This document shows positions 60,111 to 62,104 of a stretch of DNA of 64,000 bases, piece after piece. The DNA comes from a bacterium A37T11. GTDB lineage: Bacteria; Bacteroidota; Bacteroidia; Sphingobacteriales; Sphingobacteriaceae. Under the pieces are notes generated by a model, which worked only from the letters and a program-made list of their open reading frames with translations, had not been told where the DNA came from and searched no databases. Where the stretch lies: NCBI GenBank assembly GCA_900109895.1, contig FOBR01000004.1:62001-126000 (forward strand), in the 5' to 3' direction. Position numbers and translations under genes: made by a program. Position 1 is the first letter of the stretch; each line of letters begins with the position of its first letter.

Positions 60111-60815
60111 ATGAACATCATTATCACAGGAGCAAGTAGCGGCGTAGGGTTTGAAGCAGTATTGGAACTTATCCTACATAACGATAATCGGGTCATTGCG
60201 CTGGCCCGGTCTGAAGATAAACTAAGGAATTTATATACCATCGCTAAAGGGCTTAACCCCGATGCACAGTTGTTCCCTGCCCGTTTTGATATTGTCCATG
60301 ACGATTATGAAAATGGCCTGCTACCTTTTATAAAAGATAAGATGGAACGCGTGGATATTCTGATCAATAATGCCGGTATCCTTTTAAACAAACCTTTTAA
60401 GGAAACTTCACAGATCGAGTTTGCCGAATTACTGCAAGGCAACCTATTGGGTCACGTTAAAATGATCCAGGCGCTGCTGCCCATAATGCCGGCTGGAAGC
60501 CATATCCTTAATATTGGAAGTATGGGAGGATATCTGGGCAGTGCTAAGTTCCCTGGCCTGGCCGCATATTCTGCCAGCAAAGCTGCCCTGCACGCCTTAA
60601 CAGAATGCCTGGCGTTTGAATTAACAGAACAACAGATCAAAGTCAATTGCCTGGCCTTGGGTTCAGCCCAAACCGAGATGCTTGAGAAGGCTTTCCCGGG
60701 ATATCAGTCGCCCATTGCAGCCTTTGAAATGGGTAAGTATATTGCCGATTTTGCACTCAGCGGGCATAAGTTTTTTAATGGAAAAGTATTGCCCGTTGCG
60801 GTAACGACTCCTTAG
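60111..60815 (+). CDS. SDR-family oxidoreductase
   Basis: The 234-residue protein is a classical SDR: TGASSGVG (7-14), NNAG (near 86-89), Ser in IGSMGGYLG and the complete active site YSASK. Arg33 in ALARSEDKL favours NADP(H). It has no obvious pathway neighbours: the preceding heptad repeat and the following non-coding unit separate it from other genes. The substrate cannot be told. Confidence 0.88.
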   Translation: MNIIITGASSGVGFEAVLELILHNDNRVIALARSEDKLRNLYTIAKGLNPDAQLFPARFDIVHDDYENGLLPFIKDKMERVDILINNAGILLNKPFKETSQIEFAELLQGNLLGHVKMIQALLPIMPAGSHILNIGSMGGYLGSAKFPGLAAYSASKAALHALTECLAFELTEQQIKVNCLALGSAQTEMLEKAFPGYQSPIAAFEMGKYIADFALSGHKFFNGKVLPVAVTTP

Positions 60816-60961: not shown

Positions 60962-60993
60962 TTTCTCAAAATAAAAATTCGTTCTTATCTTTG
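60962..60993 (+). promoter_or_regulatory. Promoter of the putative small RNA
   Basis: TTTC (60962-60965), 20 bases, then TATCTTTG (60986-60993): a perfect -7 box with a one-mismatch -33 box. It lies 170 bases after the SDR gene and no plus-strand gene follows before the terminator. Confidence 0.7.
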
Positions 60994-60999
60994 CCTTGT

Positions 61000-61108
61000 A
61001 AACAAACGCTAACGGAAACTTTGCTTGTTTCACACAAAAATGTCTTTTCATAATTTAGGTTTATAATTGGTTAGTAAAAACCCTGGTGCTCATCGCCAGG
61101 GTTTTTCT
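61000..61108 (+). ncRNA. Putative small RNA between an SDR gene and the floA-type gene
   Basis: A strong promoter ends at 60993 and an intrinsic terminator closes the unit at 61076-61106, giving a transcript of about 105-110 bases. The 5' part can pair AAACAA with TTGTTT around a G/A-rich loop, and a single-stranded T/A-rich middle follows. The only ATG frame is eight codons (MSFHNLGL), so the unit is probably non-coding, though a tiny peptide is possible. The flanking genes converge, so this is not a leader of either. It is not recognised as 6S, tmRNA, SRP or RNase P RNA. Confidence 0.6.
61076..61108. terminator. Strong bidirectional intrinsic terminator
   Basis: AAAAACCCTGG (61076-61086) pairs perfectly with CCAGGGTTTTT (61096-61106) across a 9-base loop, with T-tracts on both strands. 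It can end the small RNA on the plus strand and the floA-type gene on the minus strand. Confidence 0.92.
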
Positions 61109-61114
61109 TTTTAA

Positions 61115-62104
61115 TCAATCTTTTTTACCTTTTCCCGTACCCGGTTTCGCTATAGAATCCCTCATATCCGTATCGGCCTGGATATTTTGCATTTTATAAT
61201 AATCCATAATGCCCAGATTGCCGCTTCTGAATGCTTCTGCCATGGCCAATGGAATTTGTGATTCAGCCTCAATAACCTTTGCCCTGGCCTCTTGAGCCTT
61301 TGCTTTCATTTCCTGTTCATAGGCTACGGCCATTGCCCGGCGTTCTTCGGCCCGCGCATTGGCCACTTTCAGGTCAGCTTCTGCCTGGTCGGTTTGCAAT
61401 TTTGCGCCAATATTTTCGCCAATATCAATATCAGCAATATCAATGGAAAGAATTTCAAACGCTGTTCCACTGTCCAAACCTTTTCCCAATACTGTTTTTG
61501 AAATCTTGTCAGGGTTTTCAAGCACTTCTTTATGGTTGCCGGCCGAACCGATGGTAGTGACAATACCCTCGCCTACCCGGGCCAAGATGGTCTCTTCGCC
61601 TGCACCACCCACCAGCTGGTTGATATTGGCACGCACCGTGACCCTGGCTTTAGCAATGAGCTGGATGCCGTCTTTCGCAACCGCGGCCACAGGCGGGGTA
61701 TTGATCACCCGGGGATTCACTGAAATCTGTACCGCGTCAAAAACATCCCGGCCAGCCAGGTCAATGGCTGTTGCCAGCTTAAAGCTAAGCGGAATATTGG
61801 CCTTATCAGCCGAGATCAGTGCACGGATCACTCCATTTACGTTTCCGCCGGCCAGGTAATGCGTTTCAATATCGTTGGAGGTAATGTTTAGCCCCGCTTT
61901 GGTAGAGGTAATCATTGCATTAACCACCAACGATGGAGACACTTTTCGCAAGCGCATCAGCACCAGGTTTAGCAGGTTGATCCGTACACCAGACAGCTGT
62001 GCGGTGAACCAAAGGTTAACCGGTAAAATATATAACAATAAAAATAAGGCAATGATCGCACCGATCACAATAAGAATGGGGGTAATGGCCGTAGCAGTTT
62101 CCAT
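61115..62104 (-). CDS. floA: Flotillin-like protein FloA (UPF0365/YqfA family)
   Basis: The 329-residue protein has an N-terminal membrane segment ([21 protein letters not shown]) and a SPFH-like domain ([35 protein letters not shown]). A long Ala/Glu-rich coiled coil follows (about 235-290, [19 protein letters not shown]), with a C-terminal [20 protein letters not shown]. FloA proteins organise membrane microdomains. It lies 68 bases after the M3 peptidase gene, with a terminator between, and ends at the shared bidirectional terminator. Confidence 0.93.

Follow-up and report, generated by a model that had tools for sequence, protein, structure and literature searches.

A candidate multicopy small RNA family of Sphingobacteriaceae that probably represses nutrient-uptake transporters by base pairing

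What is encoded between two convergent genes of a member of the Sphingobacteriaceae where a promoter and a terminator, and no gene, can be read? An earlier note on the 64,000-nucleotide stretch of DNA analysed here (the window, part of a genome of 5.09 Mb in 60 contigs) had proposed a free-standing, trans-acting and hitherto undescribed small RNA (sRNA). Comparative evidence now backs that proposal: by all comparative tests available, the predicted RNA belongs to a real, conserved and undescribed sRNA family. We consider it probable that this is a multicopy family of trans-acting, base-pairing RNAs repressing nutrient-uptake transporters in Sphingobacteriaceae. The multicopy nature of the family, its sharing with phages and its pairing partners are points beyond the earlier note.

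A promoter-to-terminator unit between convergent genes

The flanking genes converge on the unit, and the perfect -7 box reported earlier, of the Bacteroidota type TAnnTTTG, is in place [Table 1]. The proposed -33 box is the least secure part of the unit: the TTTCTC at the right spacing is a weak match, but the floA-linked orthologues described below mostly carry TTGAC or TTG at that place. The terminator was recovered with 13 pairs in its stem, one of them G-U, where a perfect 11-base stem had been described, and the predicted transcript agrees closely with the 105-110 bases first suggested. Of the "unpaired middle segment" the note had pointed to, the position stands, as it coincides with the invariant core of the family, but only about half of it is predicted to be unpaired in the window copy.

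No credible open reading frame lies between the SDR and FloA genes, and the listed frames of 31 and 44 amino acids cross the promoter; a small protein was rejected, there being no conserved frame. Rfam returned 0 matches at gathering score for the whole window, in line with the note's failure to recognise a housekeeping RNA, and ARAGORN found neither tRNA nor tmRNA in the window. Known housekeeping and regulatory RNAs were likewise discarded, the weak matches to rnk_leader, His_leader, MicC and FopS being largely driven by the terminator. The sequence GGTTTATAATTGGTT, its RNA form and its complement had no occurrence in the literature searched, where nothing relevant on sRNA work in Sphingobacteriaceae turned up either.

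Table 1 Features of the predicted sRNA unit and its neighbours in the window
Feature	Position	Strand	Remarks
Short-chain dehydrogenase (SDR)	60111..60815	+	upstream neighbour, converges on the unit
-33 box TTTCTC	60962..60967	+	weak; ~19-20 bases upstream of the -7 box
-7 box TATCTTTG	60986-60993	+	type TAnnTTTG
Predicted small RNA	60998..61112	+	~109-115 nt; start placed ~5 nt past the -7 box by analogy with FopS
5' leader hairpin AAACAA...TTGTTT	61000..61030	+
GTCTTTTC	61042..61049	+	conserved in long-leader copies; with the next bases, putative complement of start codon and A-rich codons (ATGAAAAGAC)
Family core TCATAATTTAGGTTTATAATTGGTT	61048..61072	+	presumed pairing region
GGTTTATAATTGGTT	61058-61072		nearly invariant section of the core
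TATAATTGGTTAGT	61062-61075		section with best support as presumed pairing region
GGUUUAUAAUUGGUU			stretch common to all family copies
Intrinsic terminator AAAAACCCTGGTG-CTCAT-CGCCAGGGTTTTT	61076..61106	+	arms 61076-61088 and 61094-61106, loop CTCAT, T-rich tail after
Flotillin-like FloA	61115..62104	-	downstream neighbour, converges; conserved neighbour of the window copy

A family of near-identical copies

The window RNA is one of about ten near-identical paralogous small-RNA copies in its genome. Used as a query against that genome, the interval hit ten places, and a pattern search returned 11 matches, all close to TCATAATTTAGGTTTATAATTGGTT, against 0 for the reversed pattern. Ten of the 11 are sRNA-like, the core running directly into a GC-rich hairpin whose sequence differs from copy to copy, and upstream of nine of these ten there is a TAnnTTTG box. 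The eleventh match (C24:135507, L018) was rejected as an sRNA, since it has no terminator and its opposite strand forms the leader of a sodium/solute symporter; it was kept as a candidate target. One pair of copies is arranged in tandem on contig C34. Tandem pairs some 100-205 bases apart were noted in Sphingobacterium allocomposti (L136:2400-2650) and in the own genome (L015), an arrangement that suggests local duplication.

Among 129 distinct copies, a TAnnTTTG box was present within 80 bases upstream in 62, compared to 214 of 4980 background windows (4.3% of 80-base windows), and it stood exactly 19 bases before the core (TTTAGG) in 44. Copies come in a short form, with the core close behind the -7 box (TATCTTTG TGTCATCATAATTTAGG), and in a long form, to which the window copy belongs, with a leader and GTCTTTTC ahead of the core. 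Nearly all copies have the terminator loop TCCCC or CCCAT; with a strict terminator finder, a C-rich loop was scored in 32 of 33 family terminators as opposed to 3 of 50 background terminators. Twelve aligned copies were identical in the core, and nine of the 13 terminator pairs showed double compensating changes, the kind of change that the note had proposed to look for.

The window copy has recognisable orthologues next to floA at eight loci, seven in Sphingobacterium and one in Parapedobacter, the FloA proteins being 90-93% identical. All eight retain the -7 box, 61-67 bases before GGTTTATAAT (72 in the window), together with GTCTTTTCATAATTTAGGTTTATAATTGGTTAGT and the terminator; the sequence of the leader varies. 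The AAACAA/TTGTTT hairpin at the 5' end could not be told from chance in the window alone (p=0.34), but the orthologues, which have hairpins of other sequence there, reach significance, with a mean z of -2.2 over ten sequences and a combined z of about -7 that is inflated, three of the sequences being from one genus. Promoter, core, terminator and 5' hairpin are thus all kept beside floA in other genera, and the conservation on which the earlier note had staked its claim speaks in favour of an RNA.

Beyond these loci, genomes of the same family held 0-21 matches at up to two mismatches and the rest of the class near none, the named matches falling in Mucilaginibacter, Sphingobacterium, Parapedobacter, Olivibacter, Arcticibacter and Pedobacter, all of them Sphingobacteriaceae. 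A sequence-only covariance model, R1, detected the family in eight of ten sampled family genomes; among 285 further genomes of the class it hit two places, both weakly.

Complementarity to transporter start regions and likeness to FopS

The complement of the core, AACCAATTATAAACCTAAATTATGA, resembles a Bacteroidota start region, ATG included. In the own genome, the target sample consisted of 50 SusC genes and 318 other genes (100 of the 318 being used in shuffles). Against the SusC start regions, the core yielded a mean duplex score of -12.57, compared to -10.94 (sd 0.48) for 200 dinucleotide-shuffled cores, none of which did as well; against the other genes there was no effect, 80 of the 200 shuffles being as good. 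The effect was stronger still over 70 SusC genes from ten relatives carrying the RNA (z -4.1; 0 of 100 shuffles as good) and weak or absent in upstream control regions of the same 70 genes. Most of the signal resides in the 3' half of the core (TATAATTGGTTAGT), and it is mainly through AAUUGGUUAG that the core shows preferential complementarity to SusC-type TonB-linked transporters and a sodium/solute symporter, in their start regions.

The leader of this symporter (L286) can form 23 nearly contiguous pairs with the core, the last about 10 nt upstream of the ATG (-25.6). Three of 13 non-copy matches to the complement lie directly before an ATG, namely those of the L286 symporter, of a membrane protein that looks HdeD-family-like (L288) and of a SusC gene (L289). 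Symporter homologues at 18 loci of relatives scored better than all 300 shuffles, and the near-perfect site showed no letter-for-letter conservation in relatives. The L286 site (G000:C24:135500-135530) is on the window's own contig, about 12 kb from the window sRNA gene.

How specific is this complementarity? SusC genes made up seven of the 25 best-scoring own start regions, 3.4 being expected, and prediction for single genes is therefore weak. The motif AACCAA is enriched upstream of SusC relative to other genes even in genomes without the RNA (10/48), and SusC genes of Sphingobacteriaceae give a good score with the seed of FopS, a Bacteroides sRNA, too (z -2.7). A general property of SusC leaders may thus account for part of the signal. 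In the outgroup, 16 true SusC genes gave a z of -0.9, not clearly different from the -2.5 (sd 1.0) obtained with samples of 16 from carriers. Judged from predicted pairing, the target class is well supported; lineage-specific co-evolution is not shown.

These results, all derived from sequence, suggest that the most likely function of the family would be to repress, by base pairing, the translation of outer-membrane SusC-type and sodium/solute transporters. In each gene, a sigma-ABfr-type promoter or a preceding tRNA or tRNA-like element is combined with a nearly invariant, mostly single-stranded core of ~25 nt and, after it, a terminator hairpin with a C-rich loop. Once transcribed, the RNA would block translation of its target mRNAs by pairing with them near the start codon and the ribosome-binding region, the several loci jointly setting the dose of a nutrient-uptake regulator much as FopS does at the polysaccharide loci of Bacteroides.

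An alternative that we regard as unlikely is that the RNA is real and acts mainly on protein, core and C-rich loop binding an RbpB-like RRM protein or some other protein, the ten copies together forming a sponge, and any match to SusC leaders being incidental. Pairing with varied targets would require much less conservation than the core displays, and the core is retained in phages too; the loop of the terminator is also conserved, although terminators need no loop sequence. A sponge of this kind predicts no bias towards SusC, however, whereas the affinity found here singles out SusC start regions over other genes and upstream controls.

Base pairing with transporter mRNAs, the reading that we prefer, has a described parallel. 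FopS of B. thetaiotaomicron comprises 14 members, each built of a terminator preceded by a single-stranded 5' seed; it binds RbpB, which antagonises it, represses SusC translation and has copies reported in a phage (PMC11697453). The window family resembles FopS (RF04319) in consisting of multicopy paralogues with TAnnTTTG-type, or sigma-ABfr, promoters (nine of the ~10 copies here), and in having an intrinsic terminator behind a single-stranded 5' part; the window copy has a 5' hairpin in addition. In both, the seed resembles a SusC start region, with its start codon, read in complement (UUUUUCAU..GGUUAA in FopS, UCUUUUCAU..GGUUAG here), the pairing of the window family with these regions being a predicted, statistical complementarity.

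Differences are as plain. FopS belongs to Bacteroidaceae and the window family to Sphingobacteriaceae. The core of the window family is longer and nearly invariant, its terminators have C-rich loops, and the family comprises long-leader and tRNA-linked forms. The FopS model matched the window at 17.8 bits (E 1-3), below the Rfam gathering score of 56 bits; it found no FopS in the own genome or in 20 relatives and, across the class, hit eight of 247 genomes, none in the window's family, the FopS loci so found beginning with GUGUUUUUCAUGGUAUUAGAUUUAAGGUUAAUAAAG. In the other direction, too, the covariance models gave no match, as model R1 finds no FopS. The R1 seed of FopS can be aligned with the family consensus (UUUUCAU, UUAG, GGUUA.UAAAG), with 15-445 of 3000 shuffles (~0.5-15%) scoring as high depending on the FopS copy, and with the short-leader form more shuffles did so. 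Given this marginal significance, the lack of a cross-match between models and an Rfam score far below cut-off, we suggest by analogy that the window family may work like FopS, without claiming common descent.

GibS, a Bacteroides sRNA with an R1 seed in common with FopS, binds the start regions of metabolic mRNAs (PMC11697453). Against the window, its model (RF04182) scored 15 bits, on the opposite strand, with a cut-off of 115, and, unlike the window family, GibS has two seeds and is not known as a multicopy family. LhrC of Listeria, which has several paralogues with C-rich accessible loops, is like the window family in these two respects and differs from it in its unrelated sequence and its phylum. 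The copy number of LhrC is given in the same paper as FopS (PMC11697453).

What is known of small RNAs in Bacteroidota comes almost entirely from Bacteroides. If our reading is true, the control of SusC transporters by RNA paralogues at the post-transcriptional level would be a general strategy of the phylum, and a FopS-like multicopy RNA with an invariant core of its own, occurring in phages and after tRNA-like elements, would have test species among the cultivable Sphingobacteriaceae.

Phage copies and tRNA-linked loci

The exact 19-base core occurs in 48 viral contigs. The copies examined neighbour portal, terminase and capsid genes of tailed phages and are followed by hairpins of their own. 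Some phage copies lie 10-20 bases past phage tRNA genes (L160:2952-3041, L177:3061-3151 and L192:2728-2816). One may speculate that hosts and phages across the family share one nearly invariant RNA core, up to about twenty dispersed host copies, some from a conserved tRNA-Leu-like precursor, setting SusC and symporter levels, and tailed-phage versions, some tRNA-linked, retuning the surface receptors of the host during infection; as a whole, this scheme strikes us as improbable.

Very unlikely, to our mind, is a cis-acting 3'-UTR or transcription-end module serving neighbouring genes: all copies do have a strong terminator at their end, and for some there is linkage to tRNA or tRNA-like genes, but in the window both genes converge on a unit that has its own promoter, many copies start within a few bases of a promoter, and the core is absent from ordinary terminators of the genome. 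That the core is instead a DNA element disseminated by phages, such as an integration (att) site or a mobile repeat, is hardly credible, since the identical 25-30 base block in phages, the copies at tRNA 3' ends and the own copy L010 near a tyrosine-integrase gene have to be set against a promoter box at fixed distance, a hairpin directly after the core (usually with C-rich loop and T tract, and with compensating changes) in host and most phage copies, and a window copy at a conserved floA site with no adjoining integrase. Copy L010 (G000:C12:251866-254888) sits between genes for a DbpA-type RNA helicase and a tyrosine recombinase of the phage integrase family.

A conserved tRNA-Leu-like element (pattern GGCAGACACACCTCCTTGTCNCGGTGGC) was observed in 73 of 121 Sphingobacteriaceae genomes and is absent from the own genome. 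Neither ARAGORN nor Rfam reports it. Its acceptor stem and T arm pair, with a few compensating changes, and ACCUCCUU, the 16S anti-Shine-Dalgarno sequence, takes the place of the anticodon arm. Comparison of positions places the sRNA core directly after many of its copies. Up to seven copies were counted; five stand in tandem in Pedobacter sp. SYSU D00535 (L155:4000-5700), and others occur at L040, L061, L080, L108, L142 and elsewhere. Sphingobacteriaceae loci with the sRNA family also include Flavo-1 RNAs (RF01705), at L108:4176-4258, L108:799-879 and L142:3361-3446.
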